In this document: piece by piece, positions 19,457 to 37,733 of the stretch
How positions within the stretch are numbered: the stretch's first letter is position 1
Layout of the letters: every line of letters begins with the position of its first letter
Assembly (NCBI GenBank): GCA_001512905.1
Contig: LFTB01000075.1
Span: 1-37,733, forward strand
Reading direction: 5' to 3'
Length of the DNA stretch: 37,733 nucleotides
DNA from: Clostridia bacterium DTU084
Lineage (GTDB): Bacteria > Bacillota > DTU084
Position numbers and translations under genes: made by a program
The notes under the pieces: generated by a model
Told to the model about the DNA's origin: nothing
What the model saw: only the letters and a program-made list of their open reading frames with translations
Databases searched by the model: none

Positions 19457-20704
19457 TTATTTGGAAATTTTCAAGGTTAAATTCAGGGGAAGGCGGGTGG
19501 TCCAGATGTCTCTGGTGGCGATTGCCTCCACAGTGACCACATCATTTGCCTGGCTGATCTCTTTAAGAGCGTTCTGGAAGGCTTCCAATGTGAGATCACC
19601 CACGTTGCCCTCGCTGTCAGTCACCATGCCGCGGCTGATGGCAAGCTGATTGATGGAGTAGAGGAAGTCCATCAGCTCCAGCTGAATCTGGTGAAAGCCC
19701 CCTCTGCCGTCAATCTGGCAGGCGGCAATTGTCTGGCCAGCTGACCAAATCTTTGTTTTCGGCAGAATTTGAAAGTACGTGAGCACAGGCTCCCCTTGCA
19801 CCACATTGGTCATGGAAATGAGCCTCACTACCACCTCATCAGCAAGTTCCGCAATGATTTGGCTGGCAGTATCGAAGTTGCCCTCCAGGAGCTTCAAGGC
19901 GATTCCCTGCTTGCCTTCAACCTTTGCGCCGCGCATGACAGCAACATTGTTGGCTTGGGTCAAAAAGAAGCTAAGTTCGTTCTGAATCTCAGCAAGTTCG
20001 GCTTTGCCGCTGATCACAGTAGAGAGGACGATTTCATCAGCCTGATAAACCACGGTCCCGAAGATCATGCTCTCGAGGCCTGTCTGCAGCTGCGCCCGCT
20101 CCCGCTCTAAGGTAGAGATCTCACGCTCCAGGTGCCTTTTCAATCTCAGAAGGTTATCTCTTTCCGCTGCGAGCCTTTCCACCTGTTCCGAAAGGGGCGC
20201 TAGCTGCGAGCGGAGGGCGGCAGCTTTTTCCTGCGCTTGAGAAAGCTCTAGGCTGGTCTTTTCGTAGGCAAGCTGAATTTTCCGGTACTCTGCACTTACC
20301 TCGTCCCTTTCCTTCTGCACTACTAGCAATTTCTCGCTCAATTTCCGGTACTCTTCAGTCTTTTGGGTGATGGCACGGCTGAGCTCTCCAACCTCATTGC
20401 TTTTTTGGGTTAGTTCTGTTTTTAACACGCTCAGGCGCTGCCTGCTGTTTGCAAGGGCCTGCTGCAGCTCTTTCATCCCGAAAAGGGCTGTCCGCACGTC
20501 CTGGGATACAACGGCAAGAATGGTGAGGGTGGCAGTGGAAATCAAAATCCCTGTGATGATGGTGATGACAATAGAAGTATGGCGGGGCCGCAAGCCAAAG
20601 AGGGAGAGGCGTTTTTTGCCTATTCTCCTGCCGATTTTATCGCCCCAATAAGCTACAATCCCGCCTGTTGTGATGAGTACCAACACCAAACCTATGCCGT
20701 ACAT
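19457..20704 (-). CDS. DUF3084 domain protein with membrane anchor and coiled coil
   Basis: 415 residues. Two membrane segments lie at about 2-20 and 43-67, separated by a basic loop (DKIGRRIGKKRLSLFGLRPRH). A long coiled coil spans about 75-205, and a C-terminal mixed alpha/beta region of about 210 residues is the DUF3084 domain (AVMRGAKVEGKQGIALKLLEG, TVVYQADEIVLSTVISG). Function is unknown. The gene starts three bases after lptF/G, whose final codons supply its GGGAGG ribosome binding site, so it is translationally linked to LPS export. A structural or bridging role in the envelope is plausible but not shown. Confidence 0.85.
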   Translation of the reverse strand: MYGIGLVLVLITTGGIVAYWGDKIGRRIGKKRLSLFGLRPRHTSIVITIITGILISTATLTILAVVSQDVRTALFGMKELQQALANSRQRLSVLKTELTQKSNEVGELSRAITQKTEEYRKLSEKLLVVQKERDEVSAEYRKIQLAYEKTSLELSQAQEKAAALRSQLAPLSEQVERLAAERDNLLRLKRHLEREISTLERERAQLQTGLESMIFGTVVYQADEIVLSTVISGKAELAEIQNELSFFLTQANNVAVMRGAKVEGKQGIALKLLEGNFDTASQIIAELADEVVVRLISMTNVVQGEPVLTYFQILPKTKIWSAGQTIAACQIDGRGGFHQIQLELMDFLYSINQLAISRGMVTDSEGNVGDLTLEAFQNALKEISQANDVVTVEAIATRDIWTTRLPLNLTLKISK

Positions 20705-20707
20705 GGT

Positions 20708-21808
20708 TTACCTCCCACTTTTCCAGAGCAGATAAATCCCCCAGCCGCCGAGGACGAAGTTCACCAGCCAGACGCTTATGCTTGCAGGAAGCTGGCCTCC
20801 TTCTCCTAAAGAAGAGCCTAAACTGAGAATCAAATAGTAGACGAAAATGATCACTACAGACTGGCCAAAGCCCTTGCTAGACGCTGTACGATGGGATTGA
20901 ATTCCCAAAGGAGCTCCAACCAGCACGAAGACGAGACATGCCAAGGGAATAACCATCTTCTGCTGCCAGAGCACCTCCAGTTTTTTTACATCTTCCCCCT
21001 GTTTGCGGAGAAAGGCAATTTGCGCTTTCAGCTCCCACCAGTTCATTTCCTCAGGCCTTTTTTGCTGCTGAGCGATCTGGCGGGGCTCCACAGACAACGG
21101 CAGGGGCTGGCGGACAGAATGAAAGCTGGCAGAAACCACCCGGCCGTCCTCTAAATATTCATATGCTTCTGCCTTGGAATAATACCAACTGCCCCGATCC
21201 CAAAAAATCTGTCCTGTTTTTATGGTGCGGCGGAGCTCTCCAGCTTCGAACTCCTGCACCACTGCATCTTCCATTACCTGCCGGATGTTGTCGTAAACTT
21301 TGGCATACAGGAGCCTGGTAAGCTGGCCGTCCTTGTAATCCCGGAGGATCACGTTCTGGAGCACCTGAGGTCCTGTTTTCTCCTGGGCCAGGAGCTGAAT
21401 GCGGGCAGAATTGGCCTTGGGGACGATCAGCTCTCCCAAAACAAACCCCAGAATGCTCAAGGCAAGGCCCATCCAAAGCACTGGCTTTACTATCTGCTTC
21501 CTGCTCACCCCGCCTGCTTCCATGGCAACGATCTCGCTGTTTGCAGAGAGCCGGCTCAGGGTAAGGAGCACTGCCATTAAAGTGGCCATTGGCAGGACGT
21601 AGTAAAGGATCTGGGGCAAGTTCAGGAAAAGAAGCTGACCCAGCTGGAAAGTGCTTAACTTCAGCTGGTTGCCAATTTTTGCCAGCTGCAGAAGATCTGT
21701 CCCCACATAGAGGCTAGCAAAGGCTGCCAGAGAAAAAACAAACGGGCCTGCTAGTTCCTGATAAAGATAGCGCGGCAGGATTTGCATCTTTCTGTATCTT
21801 CCAAACAT
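20708..21808 (-). CDS. lptF: LptF/LptG family LPS export permease (single subunit)
   Basis: 366 residues with the YjgP/YjgQ layout: three N-terminal membrane helices (about 15-125, containing LSANSEIVAMEAGGVSRKQI), a periplasmic beta-jellyroll of about 140 residues (about 135-275) and three C-terminal helices (about 285-362). With LptB it extracts LPS from the inner membrane and passes it to LptC. Only one such gene is present, so the permease is probably a homodimer, or the second subunit is elsewhere. Two start options exist, ATG at 21808 and an ATG seven codons later; neither has a strong ribosome binding site. LptB lies 31 bases upstream. Confidence 0.93.
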   Translation of the reverse strand: MFGRYRKMQILPRYLYQELAGPFVFSLAAFASLYVGTDLLQLAKIGNQLKLSTFQLGQLLFLNLPQILYYVLPMATLMAVLLTLSRLSANSEIVAMEAGGVSRKQIVKPVLWMGLALSILGFVLGELIVPKANSARIQLLAQEKTGPQVLQNVILRDYKDGQLTRLLYAKVYDNIRQVMEDAVVQEFEAGELRRTIKTGQIFWDRGSWYYSKAEAYEYLEDGRVVSASFHSVRQPLPLSVEPRQIAQQQKRPEEMNWWELKAQIAFLRKQGEDVKKLEVLWQQKMVIPLACLVFVLVGAPLGIQSHRTASSKGFGQSVVIIFVYYLILSLGSSLGEGGQLPASISVWLVNFVLGGWGIYLLWKSGR

Positions 21809-21839
21809 AATCTACCATCTTTCTCTTTGCCACGTGCTC

Positions 21840-22556
21840 CTAAAAACGAAAGCTGTCTCCCAAATAGTATTTGCGGGCAATGGGATCTTCTGCAAGCTCA
21901 GCTGCAGAGCCTGAGGTGAGGATCTTCCCGTTGTGCATGATGTAAGCCCGATCCACAATGGAGAGGGTTTCCCGGACGTTGTGGTCAGTGATCAAAATGC
22001 CAATTCCCTTTGCTTTCAACTTTACAATGAGCTCCTGGATGGCTGCCACAGCTATTGGATCCACACCGGAGAAGGGCTCATCCAAAAGCAGGTAGCCTGG
22101 CTCCAAAGCCAAGGCTCTTGCAATCTCTGTGCGCCTGCGCTCTCCTCCTGAAAGCTGATAGCCGAACTGCTTTCTAATCTGGGTCAGATCAAACTCGCGA
22201 AGGAGGTTGTTCAGGCGCTGGTCTTGCTCAGCTGGAGAGAGGCTGCTGAGCTGGAGGATGGCCAGGATATTCTCTTCAACTGTGAGCTTGCGGAAAACAG
22301 AAGGCTCCTGGGCCAGGTAGCTGATGCCGAGCTTTGCCCTTTCCCACAAGGGAAGCCCTGTTACATCAGCCTCCTCCAGGAAAACCCTTCCTCCCTCTGC
22401 CCGTTCAAGGCCAACGATTAGGTAGAAGGTAGTGGTCTTGCCTGCTCCATTTGATCCCAACAGGCCAACCACTTCCCCTCTGTTGACCTCAAGATCCACG
22501 CCAGAGACCACCTTGCGGCCGGAAAAACTTTTTTCAAGGCCAACTGCCTGAATCAT
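21840..22556 (-). CDS. lptB: LPS export ABC ATPase
   Basis: 238 residues, standard for LptB. Walker [11 protein letters not shown] near residue 34, Q-loop [16 protein letters not shown], signature [15 protein letters not shown] near 136, Walker [13 protein letters not shown] near 157 and the H-loop [11 protein letters not shown]. The DHNVRETL and FSGVDP combinations are typical of LptB rather than other ATPases. It powers LptF/G. The ATG overlaps the lptA stop as ATGA, so the two are translationally coupled. Confidence 0.97.
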
Positions 22557-23095
22557 CTTTCCCCTGCCTCAACTTCCACAAAAGCGTCTTCCACCAGGAT
22601 CTTCTCCTGGGAAGTCGAGAAGGTAATGCTCTTGCCTGAAATACGCTGGCCCTCCTGCAGAAGCAGGGGTTTTTCAGTGAGGACGATCTCTTTTCCATTT
22701 CCTGTCAAAAGGCCTGCTGTGGCTTTCACCTCTCCCCTTTCCACCACCACAGAGCCTTTGGCTTCAAACCGTTCAGAGCGGGGCCAGAAGCGCAGCTGGC
22801 TGCAGGTGATGACAAGCGGAGTTTCGTCTTTACGAACAACCTTCACTCTTCCCTCAACCACCACAAGGTCTGCCTTCTCATCCCAAAGGACTTGGCTGCC
22901 TGCCAGCTCCCAATCGTTGTAGGTCACAAGCACAGGCTTTTCTGCTGTGCCGTAGCTGCGGGTGATCTGCTCTTTGAGGGAATACTCGATTTTTTCAGCT
23001 TTTATGGTGATTTTGGGTGCTTGTGCCTGCGCACAGGACAAAAAAATCAAAAAACAGGTGAAAAAAATCAGCGTCCAGCGCCTGTAGTTGCCCAT
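22553..23095 (-). CDS. lptA: LptA/OstA-family periplasmic LPS transport protein
   Basis: 180 residues with a signal peptide at about 1-25 (cleavage after AQA). The OstA domain covers most of the rest: [68 protein letters not shown]. By family it forms part of the periplasmic bridge that carries LPS between LptC and LptD. The ATG lies within the last 28 bases of lptC in another frame, and its stop overlaps lptB. Confidence 0.88.
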
Positions 23096-23607
23096 AACTG
23101 TACACCGCCTTCGACAACTAATTTACCCTGGGGTTGTTGCCAGGTGAGCTTTTCCCCTAAAAGCCTCGTTGTCTTTGTTGTAACCTCAACGCCTCCCTGC
23201 CCTACAAGCTCTTGGGCCTGGGCGTGCCAGCTTAAAGAGCCGGCAACAATGGAAAGCTCTCTGCTTCTCACCTTCACAGGGCCTGTGAAGGTGATGTCCT
23301 GCCTCTGCCAATCAATGCTGGCTTTGGGAGCTTCCACTGCAATTTCCTCATCTTCTGCTGCAAGCCTCCCGCGCAGCCCCAGAACTTCAGCAGTTTTGCC
23401 GTCCTCTGCAAACTGGATCTTTTCTGCTGTAAGCTGCCACTTCACATCCCCTGTGGGGCTAACCAGCTGCAGCGAGGGAAGCTCAGCCTGCCAGGACTGA
23501 GGTTCCTCTTTTTGAGGAGGCGTTTGGGGCTGGGGGCGGAGCCAAAGAAGGAATGCGGAAAGCAAGATCAGCCCTCCGCAGATCAAAACTGCTATGCGCT
23601 TGTGCAC
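23068..23607 (-). CDS. lptC: LptC-family LPS export component
   Basis: About 179 residues with one N-terminal membrane anchor (RIAVLICGGLILLSAFLLWL) and an OstA-like periplasmic jellyroll (LVSPTGDVKWQLTAEKIQFAEDGKTAEVLGL), as in LptC. Two starts compete. TTG at 23622 has no ribosome binding site, whereas GTG at 23607 follows GGGGTGG by six bases, so I choose 23607. It lies directly after the lpxB-related gene and overlaps lptA, in the order lptC-lptA-lptB-lptF/G that is standard for LPS export. Confidence 0.85.
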   Translation of the reverse strand: MHKRIAVLICGGLILLSAFLLWLRPQPQTPPQKEEPQSWQAELPSLQLVSPTGDVKWQLTAEKIQFAEDGKTAEVLGLRGRLAAEDEEIAVEAPKASIDWQRQDITFTGPVKVRSRELSIVAGSLSWHAQAQELVGQGGVEVTTKTTRLLGEKLTWQQPQGKLVVEGGVQLWATTGAGR

Positions 23608-23623
23608 CTGAAACCACCCCAAG

Positions 23624-25938: not shown

Positions 25939-27680
25939 TAAATAACCTCCTCATTATGCTCGCTGCGAAGGCCTGCTTCGTACAGCTTTTTGTAAATGCC
26001 ATTCTTCTTGAGCAGTTCGCTGTGCTTGCCTTCTTCTACGATTTTCCCTTTTTCCAGAACAATTATCCGATCTGCCTGCATGATTGTGGAGAGCCTGTGG
26101 GCAATGATGAAAGTAGTGCGGCCTCGCATGAGCCTTCCGAGGGCCTCCTGCAGGAGAGCTTCCGCTTCGTTATCCAAAGCTGAGGTTGCTTCGTCTAAAA
26201 TCAAGATCTTGGGATCCCGCAAAATAGCCCGGGCAATGGCGATCCTCTGCCTCTGGCCGCCAGAGAGGAAAGCTCCCCGCTCGCCGATTTTCGTCTGATA
26301 GCCTTCAGGCAGCTCCATGATGAACTCGTGGGCATTGGCAAGCTTCGCTGCCTCATATATTTCCTCTTCTAGAGCCTCTGGCCTGCCGAAGGCGATGTTT
26401 TCGTATACTGTGGTTGAGAAAAGCACCACCTCTTGGGGCACGAGGCCCAGCTGTTTTCTCAGGGAATTGAGGTCTACCTGCCTGAGGTCTACGCCGTCCA
26501 CAAGCACCCTGCCTGATGTGGGATCGTAAAAGCGTGGCAGCAGATTAACCAGCGTGGTTTTCCCAGCGCCGCTGTGGCCCACCAAAGCCACGATCTCGCC
26601 AGGCTGGACTGTTAAATTGATTTGGCTGAGGACTTCCTCCCCTTGGGGGTAGGAGAAAGTCACGTTCTCAAAAGTAACCTGACCTCTAACCTTCTCTAAA
26701 ACCACAGCATTTTTGGGCTGGGAGATCTCAACAGGCTCAGCCAGCACATCTTCCACCCTCTCTGCTGCAGCTCGGGCCTGCTGCCATGCGCTTATGGACC
26801 GGGAAAGCCCGTTGACAGGCCCCATGGCCATGGCAAGGTAGATGAGAAAACTGAACAGCTCCCCTGTGGTCAGTCTCCCTGCCAGCACTTCTTTGCCCCC
26901 AAACCACAGAACAATGATCACGGAAACTGTAACAATCAGCTCTACCACAGGTACCAGCGTCGAGTTCAGCTGCACGTTGCGCATGAGAGCTGCAAAATTA
27001 CGCTCGTTCTCTTTACGGAAGCGTTCAAGTTCCGCCTTTTCCATGGTAAAGGCCTTAACCACCCGCACTGCCTCTCCCAGGGTTTCCGAGAGAATAGCTG
27101 TGAGATCAGCAGCTTTCTCCTGGGCAAGGTGGCCCACAGACCTGATCTTTTTGCCGAAAACATTGGTTGCAAAAGCTGCAAGGGGCAGGGTGATCAGGGT
27201 GATCAAGGCCATTTGCGGATGGATGAAAAAGATATAAAGGAGAATGCCTGCAAGCCACAGCCCGTTGCTTACCACTTCAACCAGGTTCACTGCCAGGGTA
27301 TTCTGCAGAATATTCAAATCATTGGTCAGGCGGCTGATCAGATCCCCTGTCCGCACAGATTCGTGGAAAGACAGTGAAAGATCCTGCAGGTGGCTGTAGA
27401 CACGGGTCCTCAGATCTGCGACCGTCCTGTTGGCCACGAAGGCCATGAGGTAATTCTGCCCGTAAAAAACAAGCCCTTTTACAAAATACAAGAGTATGAT
27501 CCCGCCTGCCAAAAGGTTAAGCTTGCTTGTGCCGCCGCCTGCAATGAGGATCTTATCCACTACCTCTTTGCCAAAGATATAGGGCACAGAGGTGTTAATG
27601 GCTGCAACAAGGAGCATGCAGACAAGACCACCTGCAAGCTGCGGCCAGTATGGCCGTACAAACTCTAAAACTCTTTTCAT
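25938..27680 (-). CDS. msbA: MsbA-like lipid A export ABC transporter
   Basis: 580 residues, a fused half-transporter. The transmembrane domain (six helices, about 1-300) opens with MKRVLEFVRPYWPQLAGG. The nucleotide-binding domain has Walker A GHSGAGKTTLVNLLPRFYDP near 373, signature LSGGQRQRIAIARAIL near 476, Walker B ILILDEATSALD and switch histidine IIAHRLST. Length and locus fit MsbA, which flips lipid A-core across the inner membrane. The sequence alone cannot exclude a drug exporter, but its place between lpxB-type and lptC-type genes makes MsbA likely. Start ATGA overlaps the upstream gene. Confidence 0.88.
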   Translation of the reverse strand: MKRVLEFVRPYWPQLAGGLVCMLLVAAINTSVPYIFGKEVVDKILIAGGGTSKLNLLAGGIILLYFVKGLVFYGQNYLMAFVANRTVADLRTRVYSHLQDLSLSFHESVRTGDLISRLTNDLNILQNTLAVNLVEVVSNGLWLAGILLYIFFIHPQMALITLITLPLAAFATNVFGKKIRSVGHLAQEKAADLTAILSETLGEAVRVVKAFTMEKAELERFRKENERNFAALMRNVQLNSTLVPVVELIVTVSVIIVLWFGGKEVLAGRLTTGELFSFLIYLAMAMGPVNGLSRSISAWQQARAAAERVEDVLAEPVEISQPKNAVVLEKVRGQVTFENVTFSYPQGEEVLSQINLTVQPGEIVALVGHSGAGKTTLVNLLPRFYDPTSGRVLVDGVDLRQVDLNSLRKQLGLVPQEVVLFSTTVYENIAFGRPEALEEEIYEAAKLANAHEFIMELPEGYQTKIGERGAFLSGGQRQRIAIARAILRDPKILILDEATSALDNEAEALLQEALGRLMRGRTTFIIAHRLSTIMQADRIIVLEKGKIVEEGKHSELLKKNGIYKKLYEAGLRSEHNEEVI

Positions 27681-28861
27681 CTTTCTTTTCCCACCTTGAG
27701 GATTAACTGTGCCAGGCGCGCGCCTGCCCCTGGGGGACCTGCGATGGCCCTGAGCTTCTCTTCCATCTCTGCTAGAGCTCCTTCGTCGTCGAGCAGTGCA
27801 AGGCCCCTGTGGGCTACCTCCTCCGGCAGAATTTCGCCTGCAAGCTCCGGTACTACCATCTCTTCTGCGTGGCGGTTAGGCAGCGCAATAAAATCTTCCC
27901 TGAGTTTTGCGATTGCCTTTTTGCTGAAGTAGCGGCCTGCAAGAGGCAGGCGGCCGAGCAGTCCCAAAATCCCCTCAAGGGGCAGCTCTTTGAGATCAAA
28001 GGTGGGTGCCACCACAAGCTGCGGCGTGCCTGCTGCAGCCAGCTCCATGGTGTTGGTGCCCGGCAGTGTAAAAGCTAGTTTGGCCCTTAACATATATTCG
28101 TAGCGCAGGGGCAGATCACCTGCCTGCTGCGCTGAATCTAAAAGGAGCAGGCGAGTTTGGCCTGCTTCAATGAAAATTTTCTCGCCTTCCTGTTTGAGGA
28201 AGCCTGCCTTTGCCCCCGGCAGCCTGGGGTTTGCCAAAGCCTCCAGAAGCACTTCCCTCTCCACGAAGGGAGACAGGGGAAGGGCCATTTCATACTCTGG
28301 GGCCGTTTCTGCGATCTTTTGAGCAACAGCCAGCCAGTAGCCGAGGGAAAGCTTTACCTGAAATGGTCTGCTGCCTGCAAAAAACAAAAGCAGGTTTTCT
28401 CGCTCCCTTTCCTTGCCTGCCAAGGCATCTGCCATCAGGTTTCCCACCACAAGGGATCGCCTGGGGTCCAATCCTGAAAGGAGCGCCCGCTTCAGGCTCT
28501 GCTCGTCTGGGAAACAGAAATAGCGATAAGCCCCTGTGGCTTTCCCTTCTGTATAGGCCAAGGCGGGGACCCCCAGTCTCCTGGCCAAAAGAGCCATCAT
28601 CTGCCTGTCCCCGCCCAAAAAAACCAAGACTTGCGGCCTGTCTTTCCCAGGCCAGCCCAAGGCAAAGAGCCTTTTTACAGCTCCAGGTCCTAAAACCCGG
28701 CTTACCTGCGGCAGCTGCTGGACAACAGCCTCCTCTGTACCTGCAGCAAAAGGGCACGGCGGAATGAGGACTGTCAGCTGATGCCCAGAGAGGGCGCGGA
28801 CAGTAGGGGCAAGCCAGCCTGCAACTTCCCCTGGGCTATTTGCTGTGAGGAGAATGTGCAC
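27677..28861 (-). CDS. Second LpxB-like glycosyltransferase paralogue
   Basis: About 394 residues from GTG at 28861, supported by GGAGGGG about six bases upstream and by alignment of VHILLTANSPGEVAGWLAPTV with the start of LpxB. The longer frame to 28948 begins inside lpxB. GT-B features are FLGGD near residue 80, LFFAGSRPFQ near 160 and FTLPGTNTMELAAAGTPQLVVAPTFD in the C-terminal domain, similar to the LpxB substrate region. It follows lpxB in an overlapping arrangement and could add a further sugar to a lipid A intermediate or catalyse a related step. No family name is secure. Confidence 0.8.
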   Translation of the reverse strand: MHILLTANSPGEVAGWLAPTVRALSGHQLTVLIPPCPFAAGTEEAVVQQLPQVSRVLGPGAVKRLFALGWPGKDRPQVLVFLGGDRQMMALLARRLGVPALAYTEGKATGAYRYFCFPDEQSLKRALLSGLDPRRSLVVGNLMADALAGKERERENLLLFFAGSRPFQVKLSLGYWLAVAQKIAETAPEYEMALPLSPFVEREVLLEALANPRLPGAKAGFLKQEGEKIFIEAGQTRLLLLDSAQQAGDLPLRYEYMLRAKLAFTLPGTNTMELAAAGTPQLVVAPTFDLKELPLEGILGLLGRLPLAGRYFSKKAIAKLREDFIALPNRHAEEMVVPELAGEILPEEVAHRGLALLDDEGALAEMEEKLRAIAGPPGAGARLAQLILKVGKER

Positions 28862-29984
28862 CTCTTCCCCTCCCCACTGCAAGCTCCAAAATTGCCTCTG
28901 CTGCGCGCCTTGCCACTCCATCTTCTCCCAATTTCTCCCGCAGGCCAAGGAGGCGCTTGCGGAGCTGGCATTGATCTTCAGAGAGCAATCTTAAAAGTTC
29001 CTGGGCGATTCTCACACCCTTTGCCTCGTCCTGCAAGAGCTCCGGCACCAGCTCCTCCCCTGCCAGAATGTTGGGCAAGCCGACAAAAGGAATTTTCAGA
29101 AGCAGCTTTCCCAAGATCCACGTTAGGCGTGAGGTGCGGTAGACGATCACCATAGGGGTCCCTAAAAGGGCTGCCTCAAGGGTGGCTGTTCCTGATGCGA
29201 TCACTGCAGCATCTGCTGCAGCCAAAAGCTCGTAGGTGCTGCCAGAGAGGATCTGCACAGGAAAAGGCAGCTGGTCTATCTGTTCTGACAAAGCTTCCCT
29301 TGAAATAGAGCTGGCTTGGGAGACAACAAACTGCACAGCAGGGATTTTCTCCCGGACAAGCTGCGCTGCTGCCAGCATTTCCTTCATGAGGCTTTTGATC
29401 TCAGCTGGCCTGCTGCCAGGCAAGAGCGCCACAATAGGTACGTTTGGCTCTATTCCCAAAAGCTCTCTGGGATTATCACGGCTCCTCACCCTCTCTGCCA
29501 GAGGATGGCCGAGGTAGAGGACATTTGCCCCAGCTTCCCTGTAGACTGCTTCTTCCATGGGGAACACAGACAGGACCAGATCCACTGTTTCGGCAACTTT
29601 CTTTGCCCTGCCCCTTCCCCAGGCCCAGGCTGAGGGAGCAAAATAGTAAACCACTGGAATGCCAAGGCCGCGAGCCTGCTCTGCCAGCTTCATGTTAAAG
29701 CCGGGAAAGTCCACCAGCACCAAACAGTCAGGCTTCTCCTCTTGCAGGGCAGCTGTGAGCTTTGCCAAAAGCTTTTTCATTTTCGGCAGAGCCTTGATGG
29801 CTTCTGAAAAGCCCAAGATCCCCTGGCTTGTTGGATCTTCAAGGAGCCGCACGCCCTGCTCTGCCATCTTGGCGCCGCCCATGCCAAAGAGCTCAATGCC
29901 TGGATGGATCTTTTTCAGCTCGGCGGCTAAGAAGCTCGCGTTGAGGTCTCCTGAAGCTTCGCCTGCAGAAAGCATGATCTTCAC
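28836..29984 (-). CDS. lpxB: Lipid-A-disaccharide synthase
   Basis: 382 residues. Standard LpxB motifs: AGEASGDLNASFLAAEL at the N terminus, GMGGAKMAEQG near 34, LVDFPGFNMKLA near 90, APSAWAWGRGRAKKVAE near 116, LLPGSRPAEIK near 186, and SGTATLEAALLGTPMVIVYRT followed by LPNILAGEELVPELLQDEA in the C-terminal half. It joins UDP-diacylglucosamine to lipid X to form the tetraacyl disaccharide-1-phosphate. GTG start overlaps the lpxI stop as GTGA, with AGGAGAGG seven bases upstream. Next gene to be read is the LpxB-like paralogue. Confidence 0.97.
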   Translation of the reverse strand: MKIMLSAGEASGDLNASFLAAELKKIHPGIELFGMGGAKMAEQGVRLLEDPTSQGILGFSEAIKALPKMKKLLAKLTAALQEEKPDCLVLVDFPGFNMKLAEQARGLGIPVVYYFAPSAWAWGRGRAKKVAETVDLVLSVFPMEEAVYREAGANVLYLGHPLAERVRSRDNPRELLGIEPNVPIVALLPGSRPAEIKSLMKEMLAAAQLVREKIPAVQFVVSQASSISREALSEQIDQLPFPVQILSGSTYELLAAADAAVIASGTATLEAALLGTPMVIVYRTSRLTWILGKLLLKIPFVGLPNILAGEELVPELLQDEAKGVRIAQELLRLLSEDQCQLRKRLLGLREKLGEDGVARRAAEAILELAVGRGRGAHSPHSK

Positions 29985-32327: not shown

Positions 32328-33158
32328 TCAAATGATTACGCTCTGCGAGGCGATTTCCTTTACCAGCCGGGCATTGAGGGCATGTCCTGAGCGCAGGCCA
32401 ACCACATGGGCAGCCAAGGGGCCTGCCAGGCTCAGATCGCCCACCAAATCCAGGATTTTATGCCTCACAATCTCGTCGGCAAAGCGCAGCTGACCGAGAT
32501 AGCCTTCCTCTCCCACAACCACAGCCACGTCCATGTTGCCGCCGAGCCCCAGTCCCTGGGCTCTTAAGGCCTCCACTTCCTTCCAAAAAGCCAGGGTTCT
32601 CGAGGGAGCGATTTCCTGTGCAAAGGTGTCTGGCTCGATGGTAAACTGGGCAAACTGGCAGCCTACTGCAGGGTGAGGGTTGGTGAAAGTGTAGGAAACA
32701 GTGAGCTTTTCTGCAGGCAGGGCCACTAAAAGCCGCTCCCCGTCCTCCACCCAAATAGGCTTTACAAGCTTGCGGACTGCCCGCTTCTCTTGAAGTTCCA
32801 CAGTGCCTGCTTTCTGCAGAAGCTGGATCCAGGTTTGGGCGCTGCCGTCTGCCATGGGAACTTCCTCGCCGTAGAGTTCAAGGCAGGCGTTGTCTATTCC
32901 TAAACCTGCCAGGGCTGCCAGCAGGTGTTCTGGGGTCCTGATTTTTACTCCTTCTTTTTCCAAAGTTGTACAGCGGCTAGACTCCCTGACCCACTGCCAG
33001 CTGGCAGGAACCACAGGACGGGTGGGCAGGTCCGTGCGCAGGAAGTAAACCCCCTTGTTTGCCTCAGCAGGCTTGATGGTCAGCTTGACCTCCTTGCCGC
33101 TGTGCAGCGCCACGCCGCTGTAACTGATTTCGTTTTCGATTGTTGTTTGTCCAGCCAC
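32328..33158 (-). CDS. lpxC: UDP-3-O-acyl-GlcNAc deacetylase LpxC
   Basis: 276 residues, shorter than E. coli LpxC (305) but complete. Zinc-site residues are H78 (in TPEHLLAAL), H233 and D237 (in [12 protein letters not shown]), with H259 in the SGHALN motif. E77 is the likely catalytic base. It catalyses the committed step of lipid A synthesis. GTG start with AAGGAGG seven bases upstream. It follows the ABC ATPase by 29 bases and precedes fabZ. Confidence 0.97.
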
Positions 33159-33187: not shown

Positions 33188-33964
33188 TTATGCCATATTT
33201 TTCCAAGTCTGACAATATCCCCCATAGCTTTCCTTGACGAGGAGCTCCCGATAGCGGGCGCCCACCCAGCTTTTGGGCTGGAGGAAAATCTCTTCTCTGG
33301 TTCCCTCCTCCACTATTCTGCCCTGATCCATGAGCACAATCCGGTGGGCAACTTTCATGGCAAAGGGCACCTCGTGGGTGACAATAACCATGGTCGTCTC
33401 GCCGTGGCGCACCAGTTCCTCCATTACAGACAGCACCTCTCCCACGATAATGGGATCCAAAGAAGCTGTAGGCTCGTCCCAAATCATGAGCTTTGGCGAG
33501 TTGGCTAAAGCCCGGGCGATGCCCACCCGCTGCTTCTGTCCGCCGCTGAGTTCGCGAGGAAACCGTTCCAGTTCCTCCACAATTCCCACCTGCTTTAGAA
33601 GGTGAGCTGCCCGCCTTTTGGCAATATCCTCTTCTACACCGCAAAAAAGAAGGGGAAACATCACGTTTTCAAGGACTGTCAAGCGCTCTATGAGGTTGAA
33701 GTGCTGAAAGACAAAACCTATTTGCCTGCGCACCAGCCTCAGCTCATCTGGATCCAGCTTGAGCATGTCCTTTCCTTGAAAGAAGATCTCCCCCTCATCT
33801 GGCTCTGTGAGGCGGTTCAGGCAGCGGACCAAAGTGGATTTGCCGCAGCCTGAAGGCCCCATAATTACCACAACTTCTCCTTCGCGGACAGTCAGGTCTA
33901 CGCCGCCTAAAGCGATCTTTTTTCCGTATTCCTTTCTCAGTCCCCACACCTGTACAAGCTCCAT
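33188..33964 (-). CDS. ABC transporter ATPase, amino-acid-importer/LolD-like
   Basis: About 258 residues. Walker A GPSGCGKSTLVRCLNRL, Q-loop QHFNLIERLTVLENVMFPL, signature LSGGQKQRVGIARAL, Walker B KLMIWDEPTASLDP and switch THEVPFAMKVAHRIVLMDQGRIVEEG. These resemble polar-amino-acid ATPases (GlnQ-type). No periplasmic binding protein or conventional permease is nearby. Instead the gene is coupled to the large membrane protein upstream: the upstream TAG stop is one base before ATG at 33964. The longer GTG start at 33976 is less likely. With its partner it may form an unusual envelope transporter. Confidence 0.85.
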   Translation of the reverse strand: MELVQVWGLRKEYGKKIALGGVDLTVREGEVVVIMGPSGCGKSTLVRCLNRLTEPDEGEIFFQGKDMLKLDPDELRLVRRQIGFVFQHFNLIERLTVLENVMFPLLFCGVEEDIAKRRAAHLLKQVGIVEELERFPRELSGGQKQRVGIARALANSPKLMIWDEPTASLDPIIVGEVLSVMEELVRHGETTMVIVTHEVPFAMKVAHRIVLMDQGRIVEEGTREEIFLQPKSWVGARYRELLVKESYGGYCQTWKNMA

Positions 33965-33965
33965 C

Positions 33966-36380
33966 CTAACTGCCACCCTTCCTGCCGAGGATTACCTTTC
34001 TTTGGTTGAGAATTTGCATGATCCCGGGTCTGGCTGCTGGAATAACGATCTGCTGCAGAACCTCGCCGCCTGTAAGGCCCATGGCCTCGCCTGCCACCAT
34101 CTCATCCCTGTTTATAGGACTGAGCTTTTCTGCAAACAGCGCAGTGAAGAGGCCAAAAGCAGCACCCAAGAAGATGACGCTGCTTCTGGGCACCAGAGGC
34201 AGCTGGGCGCCAGTGAGAAGGGTCATTCCCCAAAGGAGGAGGGCACCTGTACAGCTGCCGTACAAATACGGCAGTGCTGCTTCCAGCCTGCGCCGCTTCT
34301 GCCGCTTGTGCTGGTGGTTCCGGCTCCAGAAGCGGAAGGCAGCGATGAGAGTTGCATGGTCGAAGATCAGGGTCAGGATCGTCACCAGCACCACGAAAAT
34401 GGCAGCGATTGTAAGGCGCACCTCACCTAGAATCCGCATCACTTCAGAGCGCATATTGGGTTTGACAAGCCCTACCTGCATGCCGTATAAAGTGACCAGG
34501 TCGCTGTCCAGCTGCTCCCTGACCAAAGCCTCTGTCTTTTTGAGGTCTATCCCCTTTCCCACCATTAAGCTCACTTTTTCTGAAGGGGCTGCTTCCCCTT
34601 CCAAATACTGATCCAAAAGGTTCAAGGAGCTTGTGATCTGCTCGTCGCTGAGCTGAGGCAGCGCGCGCTGGAGCTTGTCTGCCTCCTGGGCAATTCCTTC
34701 CAGATCTATTTCCTTAAAGGCTTTCGCCCTTTCAGCTACCAGCTCCAAACTGGGCGCAAAGACTGAGGGATCCACAGCGTCCATTGCAGCTGTGAGCTCT
34801 TGTGTTGCTGCAAGGAGCCTGGCTACCTGCTCCCGCCTGCCTTCTCTGTCTGCTCTTAGAAGGGACAAGATTTCTTTTGCGATGCTGGTTCGCCAGCTTT
34901 CAAGCTGCGGCGCTAAAGGGCCTAAGGAGTCGTCTGCACCGCTGATGAGCTTTACCGCAGCCACAAGTCCTTCCAGGTTGGAACGCAGGGGATGGGCTGG
35001 AGGAGTCATGGCCAAGATTTTCTCTAAATTTTCTCCCAGCTGGGAATAAGTCTTTGTGGTTTCCTCTTCTTTGGCAAGCAGCTGGCCTATTTTAGAGCTA
35101 GTTGCGCTGGCAGCTTCCATCAGCTCGTCCAGATCCTCCTGCCTTATCCTTCCCAAAGGGCTTGCCAGAAGCTGATGGAGCTTTGTCAGCAATGCTTCGA
35201 TCTGCTCGATTTGCTCTTTGGTGTTTTGGAATGTTTCGATGGTAGCAAGGCTTGCCCTGGCAGCTGCGTCTGCCTCTCTGCTGGTGCGGGCAAGCTCTGT
35301 CAGGAGCTTCTGGCTTTCGCCTAAAGAATTACTCAAGAGAATTCTGTTGTTTTCTAAGGAAACTTCCCCCACTCTGCCCTCGACTACCCCCCCAGCAAGG
35401 AGGTATGCGTCCAGTTTTTCTCTGCCGTCAGCGCCAAGGAGCTTTTGGGAGTTGCCTTTTTGGATAATTCCGGTGGCTTTTCTGCCGCTGATGCTTTTTA
35501 TCTCAACAACCAAACTTCCTTCCCCAGGCGGCTCCCCTACGACATTATCGCCTCCAAAGACAATGAGGCTGCCTCGCTTGACCTTGCTCTGGGTCGCAAG
35601 AGCCACTTCCACTTTGGTGCCGTAGCTCTCCAGAAAGCCTTTCAGCTGGCTGAGGGTTTCCATTAAGCTGTCCATGTCCTGGTTTCTGCCAGAGGGCGAT
35701 ACATTCCGCACCTGCTCCCCTAACTCCAGAGACAGTGCTTTTGCCAGCTGATCGCCTAAGGCTTTGGGATCAACCTTATAACCCCTGGGAAAGCGCAGCT
35801 CTAGGATTTGGTTTTCTGCCAAGATCTCGTTGATCTCACCGGTTACCTGTTGACTGTATTCTGGTTTGGTCAAAAGAACATAAATTTGTCCCCCTTGCCG
35901 GAAGGCAAAGCGGACGTGATCCAAACGTTCTATTTTTTCAATCAGCTGTCCATAAATGTTTCCCTGTACGCCTTCCACCACTACTGTAGGTTCCAGCAAA
36001 ACTGTATAGCCGCTTTGTCCGGGCAGATCATTGAAATACTTGCCCAGGCTTGAGAACACTTTTTTGGTGATTGCCTTTTGGGGCAGCGCAATGAAAAAGT
36101 TAGCTATGCCGGCAATGGCAATGCCCTCTTTCAGCTTCGCTCCAGGAAACTCTTTCTCCAGCAGCTTCTCAAGCTGTGTCCTGGCAGCGTCTTTTGCCTC
36201 CTGACGCACGTGGAGGAGAAGCTGATACTCCCCATACTCTCCCACCAACCCCGAGAGGGTATCGCCAAAGTAGGTATCCACAGCGTAGGCAACAGCTGAG
36301 GAAAAGCCGGAACCTGCGATGATGGTAACTAAAAGCAAAAGGGCTACATCTTTCAGAAAGCCCTTGCTGAAGTGCTTCAT
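33966..36380 (-). CDS. Large ABC permease-like protein with big extracytoplasmic domain
   Basis: 804 residues from ATG at 36380, which has GGAGG six bases upstream; an in-frame TTG two codons earlier is less likely. Numbering from that TTG: one helix at about 12-35; an extracytoplasmic region from 36 to about 655, comprising a mixed part (about 50-260), a beta-rich part (about 264-355) and a long helical/coiled-coil part (about 360-600). A helix follows at 657-684, a basic loop (HKRQKRRR), helices at 705-726 and 734-752, and a C-terminal segment GEAMGLTGGEVLQQIVIPAARPGI resembling the EAA coupling loop of ABC permeases. The layout recalls FtsX/MacB-type topology. I do not recognise a named family, and no substrate can be given. 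Confidence 0.65.
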   Translation of the reverse strand: MKHFSKGFLKDVALLLLVTIIAGSGFSSAVAYAVDTYFGDTLSGLVGEYGEYQLLLHVRQEAKDAARTQLEKLLEKEFPGAKLKEGIAIAGIANFFIALPQKAITKKVFSSLGKYFNDLPGQSGYTVLLEPTVVVEGVQGNIYGQLIEKIERLDHVRFAFRQGGQIYVLLTKPEYSQQVTGEINEILAENQILELRFPRGYKVDPKALGDQLAKALSLELGEQVRNVSPSGRNQDMDSLMETLSQLKGFLESYGTKVEVALATQSKVKRGSLIVFGGDNVVGEPPGEGSLVVEIKSISGRKATGIIQKGNSQKLLGADGREKLDAYLLAGGVVEGRVGEVSLENNRILLSNSLGESQKLLTELARTSREADAAARASLATIETFQNTKEQIEQIEALLTKLHQLLASPLGRIRQEDLDELMEAASATSSKIGQLLAKEEETTKTYSQLGENLEKILAMTPPAHPLRSNLEGLVAAVKLISGADDSLGPLAPQLESWRTSIAKEILSLLRADREGRREQVARLLAATQELTAAMDAVDPSVFAPSLELVAERAKAFKEIDLEGIAQEADKLQRALPQLSDEQITSSLNLLDQYLEGEAAPSEKVSLMVGKGIDLKKTEALVREQLDSDLVTLYGMQVGLVKPNMRSEVMRILGEVRLTIAAIFVVLVTILTLIFDHATLIAAFRFWSRNHQHKRQKRRRLEAALPYLYGSCTGALLLWGMTLLTGAQLPLVPRSSVIFLGAAFGLFTALFAEKLSPINRDEMVAGEAMGLTGGEVLQQIVIPAARPGIMQILNQRKVILGRKGGS

Positions 36381-36402
36381 TGCCAACCTCCCCCTTGGCT
36401 CG

Positions 36403-36408
36403 ATTATA
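36403..36408 (-). promoter_or_regulatory. -10 element for the ABC system and following lpx genes
   Basis: The minus strand reads TATAAT here, preceded by TGTGT, 22 bases upstream of the start ATG. The best -35 (TTCCAA) is 19 bases away and weak. It is placed just after the trxB terminator, so it most likely begins a transcript that includes the ABC pair, lpxC and fabZ. Confidence 0.6.
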
Positions 36409-36484: not shown

Positions 36485-36513
36485 AAAAGCGGCGCAGCAC
36501 CAAGCTGCGCCGC
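36485..36513 (-). terminator. Strong terminator after trxB
   Basis: GCGGCGCAGC (36489-36498) and GCTGCGCCGC (36504-36513) form a perfect ten-base-pair stem with a five-base loop. On the minus strand it is followed by TTTTG (36484-36488). It lies directly after the trxB stop and separates lpxD-trxB from the ABC/lpxC unit. Confidence 0.88.
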
Positions 36514-37436: not shown

Positions 37437-37733
37437 CTACTTCACCTCTCCCAAAGCAGCTTCAAGCTGCTCTACCCTTTTTTCCAGTTCCTTCAGCCTT
37501 TTAAGTTCGTTGGGCAAATTCAAAGCAGCTGCCCGCGCCCTGAGCTCTGCAGTGTGGGGCCTGGCTGGCAGGCCTGAAACTTTGGAACGGGGCGGCAGAT
37601 CGCCTACCACAAGGCCTCTTGCCATCACCACAGAGCCTGCACCAATGACCTGGTGGCCGGCTGCGGCGCTTTGGCCTGCCATGGTGACGTTTCTCTCCAA
37701 GGTGGTGCTGCCTGCGATGCCCACCTGGGCAAC
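37437..37733 (-). CDS. lpxD: LpxD acyltransferase, C-terminal part (truncated by window edge)
   Basis: The reading frame continues past the right edge; 99 codons including the stop are visible. The opening part has hexapeptide beta-helix repeats (VGIAGSTTLERNVTMAGQ, then GHQVIGAGSVVMARGLVVGDLPPRSKVSGLPARPHT) as in LpxD, which adds the second 3-hydroxyacyl chain to UDP-acylglucosamine. It ends in a coiled-coil-like helix (LKRLKELEKRVEQLEAAL), also found at the end of LpxD proteins. The start lies outside. Confirmation needs the missing N-terminal part, but the presence of the other lpx genes makes LpxD the best reading. Confidence 0.85.
   Translation of the reverse strand, partial: VAQVGIAGSTTLERNVTMAGQSAAAGHQVIGAGSVVMARGLVVGDLPPRSKVSGLPARPHTAELRARAAALNLPNELKRLKELEKRVEQLEAALGEVK

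Follow-up and report, generated by a model that had tools for sequence, protein, structure and literature searches.

The present analysis concerns two adjoining genes on the minus strand of contig LFTB01000075.1 of Clostridia bacterium DTU084, within a window of 37,733 nucleotides to which all coordinates refer. The first encodes a membrane protein of 804 amino acids, for which we use the working name BIG, and the second encodes the ATPase of an ATP-binding cassette (ABC) system; together they are called here the pair. BIG and its ATPase are a conserved system, an apparently ancient component without a described family, which in our genome sample never occurs without the outer-membrane marker Omp85 and is probably a long-standing part of the building or maintenance of the outer membrane in Bacillota. 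The way in which diderm Bacillota make and maintain this membrane, in turn, bears on the origin of monoderm from diderm cells.

Within the window the genes follow one another as trxB, BIG, ATPase, lpxC, fabZ, lpxA, lpxI, lpxB, the gene of a divergent LpxB-type protein (27677-28948), and those of an MsbA-type exporter, a nucleotidyltransferase and an LpxB-related protein, followed by lptC, lptA, lptB, lptF/G and the genes of a DUF3084 coiled-coil protein and a porin-like protein with an SLH domain. The upstream edge (37437-37733), read by eye, contains what we take to be the C-terminus of an LpxD-type acyltransferase. A previous reading made from the DNA letters alone (the sequence-only reading) had placed two coupled genes, one of them for an ATPase, between trxB and lpxC and behind their own promoter, and both the open reading frames (ORFs) and the two flanks are confirmed. 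Specifically, the likelier start of BIG is the ATG at 36380, with GGGGGAGG six bases before it, which yields the length stated in that reading. The ATPase may start at a GTG (33976), overlapping BIG by 11 nt, or at an ATG (33964) located 1 nt past the BIG stop codon, and with either start the two genes are tightly coupled. The pair is probably at the head of a separate transcript: behind trxB lies a terminator-like hairpin whose stem counts 10 pairs (three overlapping matches versus 0.4 expected), and then a TATAAT hexamer, but a promoter scan of the minus strand found no sigma-70-type match and did not pick up this hexamer, so that a dedicated promoter is no more than likely.

BIG begins with a single N-terminal transmembrane (TM) helix, after which some 600 residues are extracytoplasmic; three further TM helices lie towards the C-terminus, which is itself EAA-like (Table 1). 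This layout, already proposed in the sequence-only reading together with the beta and long-helix regions of the external part, is borne out by hydropathy, which gives the 1+3 arrangement in nearly all of 48 BIG relatives, and by an AlphaFold2 (AF2) model built on the 48-row alignment, with a mean predicted local distance difference test score (pLDDT) of 88.6 and a predicted template modelling score (pTM) of 0.56. In the model, the first long helix of the helical region measures 62 residues, a short beta-alpha-beta element lies between the long helices and TM2, and three short cytoplasmic helices at the C-terminus follow TM4. The loop between TM2 and TM3 is strongly basic, which further supports this topology, and, like the C-terminal loop, falls on the cytoplasmic side. 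Conservation is highest in the EAA-like loop (mean pairwise identity of 48%, with A763, G768, P781, P785 and G786 invariant), identity being about 30% in the TM and alpha/beta parts and 22-24% in the beta and helical parts. Three sampled BIG members of family f8 (L064, L065, L066) are only 616-624 residues long and have just short helices in the helical region. Directly upstream of these three genes lies an ORF of 458-459 amino acids, which in L064 encodes a class-III aminotransferase.

Table 1. Features of the pair and of its surroundings in the 37,733-nt window.
Feature	Position	Strand	Remarks
BIG, ABC membrane subunit	33966..36380	-	804 aa from the ATG at 36380; a TTG-started ORF reaches 36386
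TM1	36279..36359	-	about residues 8-34 (AF2 segment 8-46); hydropathy and AF2
Alpha/beta extracytoplasmic part	35616..36242	-	residues 47-255 (AF2 54-253); length near-constant among relatives
Beta domain	35352..35615	-	residues 256-343; AF2
Long-helix / coiled-coil region	34581..35351	-	residues 344-600 (AF2 345-595); 121-289 residues among relatives
TM2-TM4	34131..34454	-	residues 643-750 (AF2 643-748)
C-terminal EAA-like coupling loop	33987..34130	-	residues 751-798; aligns with polar amino acid permeases in a profile comparison
ATPase of the pair, GlnQ/ArtP type	33188..33976	-	all catalytic motifs intact
Possible -10 element of the pair's transcript, TATAAT	36403..36408	-	read by eye; no good -35
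Terminator-like hairpin after trxB, parting trxB from the pair	36489..36513	-	hairpin scan
LpxC, directly downstream of the ATPase	32328..33158	-	adjacency kept in LpxC-bearing relatives
LptC, LptA, LptB and LptF/G, same gene cluster as the pair	20708..23622	-	

In the ATPase, the Walker A, Q-loop, LSGGQ, Walker B and H-loop motifs are present, and they are invariant or nearly so in 31 relatives. Its best scores are obtained with GlnQ, ProV, TcyN and ArtP-type models and it belongs to the GlnQ/HisP/ArtP group, in agreement with the amino-acid-importer type assigned to it from the sequence, while staying under every listed equivalog cut-off (243 of 379 bits for GlnQ). A scan of viral contigs based on this ATPase gave no matches. 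As for BIG, a profile comparison (hhalign) with five polar amino acid permeases aligned exactly the EAA loop, over 35 columns and with a probability of 92%, which agrees with the loop recognised in the sequence-only reading. The sole recurrent Pfam match of BIG is BPD_transp_1, seen in 11 of 48 members with a best E of 0.0003; in the BIG of the window this match is partial (profile positions 43-111 of 184) and below the cut-off, and the complete domain is not found.

BIG falls in none of the Pfam, NCBIfam or PDB sequence families, and a search of PDB sequences returned nothing with BIG alone and only coiled-coil and low-complexity matches with the BIG profile. Neither FtsX (PF02687) nor MacB_PCD (PF12704) was found in any of the 48 members at E 0.01, and BIG showed no detectable MCE domain or MlaE permease (TIGR00996 matched at E 0.26, and through coiled coil alone), LptF/LptG permease domain (PF03739) or OstA-type domain. 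At the level of structure, no solved FtsX, MacB or LolC fold is among the 50 best listed Foldseek matches of two models. The model of a 616-residue member gave fragmentary matches to RND pumps, aspartokinase/ACT and EF-G with TM-scores of about 0.1, and the RND-pump fragments, noted for the alpha/beta extracytoplasmic part, hint weakly at porter-like (ferredoxin-like) pieces without indicating homology.

To judge from these comparisons, both subunits bear marks of a polar amino acid importer while their layout is that of FtsX, MacB and LolC. In particular, the pair shares with the polar amino acid importers (GlnPQ, HisQMP, ArtMP; type I fold) the ATPase group and the EAA-like coupling loop, but in BIG this loop lies at the very C-terminus with no TM helix after it, whereas the permeases have more TM segments past the loop; moreover, TM1 of BIG is followed by the long extracytoplasmic stretch. 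No periplasmic binding protein and no standard permease is seen among the genes annotated around the pair, as the sequence-only reading had stated, a binding protein encoded elsewhere in the genome not being excluded. With FtsEX, MacB and LolCDE (type VII) the pair has in common the 1+3 topology with an extracytoplasmic domain between TM1 and TM2, a likeness rightly drawn from the sequence, as well as the cell-envelope context and, in the case of FtsEX and LolCDE, an ATPase that is a separate protein. It differs from them in that the coupling loop of BIG follows TM4 instead of lying between TM2 and TM3, and in that no homology of sequence or fold to FtsX, MacB or LolC is detectable. The MlaFEDB system and its counterpart MlaEFD of V. 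parvula are likewise diderm ABC systems encoded in outer-membrane gene clusters and endowed with a large periplasmic part; BIG, however, has neither MCE domain nor MlaE permease, and both systems are found together in Sporomusa and its relatives. Finally, LptB2FGC is an ABC system of the outer-membrane lipid route whose genes neighbour the pair, but BIG lacks a PF03739 match and the genomes have their own LptB and LptF/G.

The distribution of the pair was examined in a sample of 300 genomes spread evenly over the phylum, with Omp85 as the marker of an outer membrane. BIG is carried by 59 of them, mostly as a full-length open frame with an identity of roughly 25-39%, and the gene is therefore real and not a chance frame; LpxC was found in 63 genomes, Omp85 in 78 (one marginal, G246), LptF/G above the cut-off in 74 and MlaE in 19. 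All 59 BIG carriers possess Omp85, while none of the 222 Omp85-negative genomes has BIG (p 3e-46 in a Fisher test that takes no account of shared descent); LptF/G is found in 57 of the carriers. The link to a diderm Firmicute and to envelope genes, suggested from the sequence, is thus upheld, and the tie to envelope genes proves far stronger than the sequence alone could reveal. The sequence-only reading had named two findings that would tell against it, a pair occurring mainly in monoderms and remote from envelope genes, or close similarity to a described family; both points were checked and the opposite was found. Across all phyla, a scan of genome contigs that relied on short peptide patterns matched BIG in Bacillota only.

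LpxC, a key enzyme of the lipid A pathway, accompanies the pair in 46 of the 59 carriers, and the 13 outer-membrane genomes that have the pair without it (G062, G077, G100, G114, G135, G148, G165, G175, G200, G225, G240, G249, G273) belong to families f55, f62 and f73. Consequently, the name "lipid A operon" given to the cluster in the sequence-only reading is too narrow. The whole-genome search covered LpxC, the absence of the remaining lipid A pathway being seen in local neighbourhoods only, and the LpxC-less genomes may export to the outer membrane a glycolipid other than lipid A. A separate lpxC2 region is known in some Bacillota (PMC11448272), and three LpxC-positive, Omp85-negative genomes may represent cases of it.

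A contrast is observed with the Mla permease, which is absent from 50 of the 59 carriers and present in 10 of the 18 non-carriers with an outer membrane (Fisher test without regard to shared descent, p 0.001), and which suggests overlapping roles. A strict either/or of the two systems was rejected, as BIG and Mla occur together in nine sampled carriers and, in addition, in two Sporomusa, in Lucifera and in one Pelosinus metagenome-assembled genome (MAG); the contrast, moreover, seems to be carried mainly by one clade. The 18 Omp85-positive genomes without BIG, from which the marginal G246 is left out, include three that are incomplete or fragmented (G001, G157, G254), and G036, G297 (77% complete), G080, G227 and G251 have neither BIG nor Mla. 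A profile search for a hidden divergent BIG in the tested non-carriers found only coiled coils and ordinary amino-acid permeases. TamB, present in 60 of 76 outer-membrane genomes, shows no clear contrast with BIG. LolA (PF03548) was found in none of these 76, and hence offers no contrast that would speak for a replacement of Lol, in a search that may not be sensitive enough here, since Halanaerobiales are reported to have LolA by Antunes et al. (PMC5007114).

The two genes also travel together. In a scan of genome contigs that yielded 72 named loci, the ATPase is the next gene after BIG in 68, and four loci have no readable downstream neighbour; LpxC comes third in 60 of those 68. The order BIG-ATPase-LpxC recurs in nearly all of the 40 loci of the genome sample. 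One copy of the pair is present per genome examined. Pairwise distances of BIG and of the ATPase correlate (Spearman 0.69), the value for BIG and LpxA being only 0.33. In the single-contig genome G190 (locus L063), moreover, the two are naturally fused into a protein of 967 amino acids, whose residues 14-689 correspond to the BIG profile and residues 725-966 to that of the ATPase; this fusion places the C-terminus of BIG in the cytoplasm beside the ATPase, as the topology predicts. Upstream of BIG, 36 of 49 ORFs match the LptC family and 28 of 49 the LptA/LptD-N family, these 49 being the unidentified ORFs only, with neighbours already identified as other genes left out. A common order in many lineages is LptF/G - LptD-like - LptC - LptA - BIG - ATPase - LpxC, and in others it is LpxD - (LptA-type protein) - BIG - ATPase - LpxC. 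In the f62 and f73 lineages, which are without LpxC, the order becomes LptF-LptD fusion - LptC - LptA - BIG - ATPase - LpxB-type protein - LptB - DUF3084 - porin. More generally, the LpxC-less genomes of f55, f62 and f73 whose locus was read keep LptB, LptC/LptA-type proteins, a porin and an LpxB-type protein.

In the BIG tree, ten Negativicutes-type sequences form one clade and six Halanaerobiales sequences another (SH-aLRT 100 each), four of the ten rows being 'Bacillota' or 'Firmicutes' MAGs or similar that were grouped by similarity and gene order. The tree gives no sign of recent exchange between these two clades. The BIGs of f62 and f73 form one cluster, while those of f55 stand elsewhere, among LpxC-bearing relatives; in other words, LpxC was lost, or was never present, at least twice with the pair kept. 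On the simplest reading, these lineages inherited the pair vertically from an ancestor that was itself diderm, and losses followed.

FtsEX, MacB and LolCDE are mechanotransmitting ABC systems, and by analogy the reading we favour, to which we would give somewhat less than an even chance, is that the pair is a mechanotransmission-type ABC machine for the assembly or homeostasis of outer-membrane lipids. In Bacillota with an outer membrane, BIG and the ATPase would form one ABC complex of the inner membrane, probably BIG2-ATPase2. The cytoplasmic EAA-like loop of BIG would dock on the ATPase, and ATP binding and hydrolysis would shift the TM helices and thereby the large extracytoplasmic domain. 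A LolCDE-, MacB- or FtsEX-like action on the periplasmic side, with no solute crossing the inner membrane, is the most likely mode, because BIG lacks the portion that an importer permease has past the EAA loop and because the domain is set between TM1 and TM2 of a 1+3 layout. The work done would be the building or maintenance of outer-membrane lipids, either through lipid hand-over or retrieval or through the driving or gating of the Lpt or a phospholipid pathway; the outer-membrane restriction, the place between Lpt and Lpx genes and the retention without LpxC point to a lipid role that is not specific to lipid A. A bolder version, which we consider doubtful, would see in the pair an ancestral lipid machine of the Bacillota outer membrane, made of an importer ATPase and coupling loop on an FtsX-like layout, doing the job of Mla in most diderm Bacillota and kept when lipid A was lost.

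Other readings account for part of these observations. The pair might be a regulator of FtsEX type, in which the ATP-driven external domain activates a peptidoglycan enzyme or coordinates the growth of wall and outer membrane and moves no lipid. The topology of FtsX and the long-helix external part of variable length would suit it, as partner-binding arms often vary in length; yet the steady neighbours of the pair are Lpt and Lpx genes and not wall enzymes, and so strict an outer-membrane restriction is not expected of a plain wall regulator, which makes this reading unlikely. Alternatively, the extracytoplasmic domain of BIG could itself carry phospholipid or glycolipid over the periplasm, replacing Mla in most diderm Bacillota. 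Such a periplasm-spanning conduit, put forward in the sequence-only reading, finds an argument in the Mla contrast and in the literature, where MlaD of V. parvula has been proposed to act as a bridge and Halanaerobiales are reported to lack Mla (PMC10665443). However, the genomes with both systems do not fit a replacement, and the inverse pattern could in large part reflect the history of the clades. In addition, no tunnel, no MCE, FtsX, MacB or Lpt domain and no reliable fold match was found in BIG, and the helical region goes down to about half in some natural members, so that a long span is not a fixed property of the protein; the conduit is weakened and not supported as proposed, and we hold it to be quite unlikely.

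The conserved adjacency to lpxC, in turn, would be explained if the pair sensed the lipid state of the outer membrane and controlled LpxC, the product of the next gene, but its retention in the 13 genomes without LpxC, and the existence of LpxC-bearing genomes without the pair, render such a sensor improbable. Least credible is an atypical importer of an amino acid or another solute, derived from a polar amino acid transporter: the ATPase models and the EAA loop point in this direction, but the ATPase falls short of the cut-offs of all the listed importer equivalogs, the permease match is truncated and sub-threshold, no binding protein is seen nearby and the distribution is strictly that of the outer membrane.

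Several points weigh against the lipid machine that we favour. About 14 reasonably complete outer-membrane genomes lack the pair, many of them having Mla. In the non-carriers G227, G080 and G251, lpxD directly adjoins lpxC with nothing between, which indicates that the pair can be absent from a cell with lipopolysaccharide genes and is not universally needed. An operon neighbourhood is no proof of a lipid role, and a role in envelope growth not involving lipids could give a similar restriction; the type I-like EAA loop would, besides, be compatible with an atypical importer. As to structure, the matches that Foldseek returned for the full BIG model were all to helical bundles and none of them reached E 0.001, and a lipid-binding fold was not identified in BIG.

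A literature search found no paper describing the BIG-ATPase pair. For Negativicutes and Halanaerobiales, a conserved outer-membrane locus has been described by Antunes et al. (PMC5007114), some of whose genes are 'hypothetical' or 'not known to be related' to this membrane, and BIG and the ATPase may be among these unassigned genes. One uncharacterised protein in the lpx gene order is mentioned by Mavromatis et al. (PMC2626281), and this is probably LpxI. The Mla study in V. parvula proposes further, undiscovered lipid-trafficking systems (PMC10665443); the pair is absent from the sampled genomes of family f30, V. parvula itself lying outside the search, and could fill a gap of this type only in other diderm Bacillota. 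Since the pair is present in the cultured organisms Sporomusa malonica, S. acidovorans, Lucifera butyrica, Orenia metallireducens and Fuchsiella alkaliacetigena, its role can be tested.

Some observations on the neighbouring genes may be added. The divergent LpxB-like protein of the window (minus strand) is the third relative of the LpxB fold in the cluster, beside LpxB and the LpxB-related protein, and has counterparts in lineages without LpxC. In locus L059 (2258-5536, plus strand), LptF is fused to an LptD-like part (LptD_N and DUF3769), which joins both membrane ends of the Lpt bridge in one polypeptide; LptF ORFs of similar size (1034-1115 amino acids) occur in L049, L050, L051, L060, L061, L067 and L070, domains having been checked in L059 only. 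In the single-contig genome G150 (C1:2530119-2530926), LpxC is seemingly split by a frameshift or stop, and the neighbouring BIG and ATPase look intact. Finally, the gene of the DUF3084 coiled-coil protein (19457-20704 in the window, minus strand) adjoins the LptB/LptF genes and that of the SLH porin-like protein in many loci.

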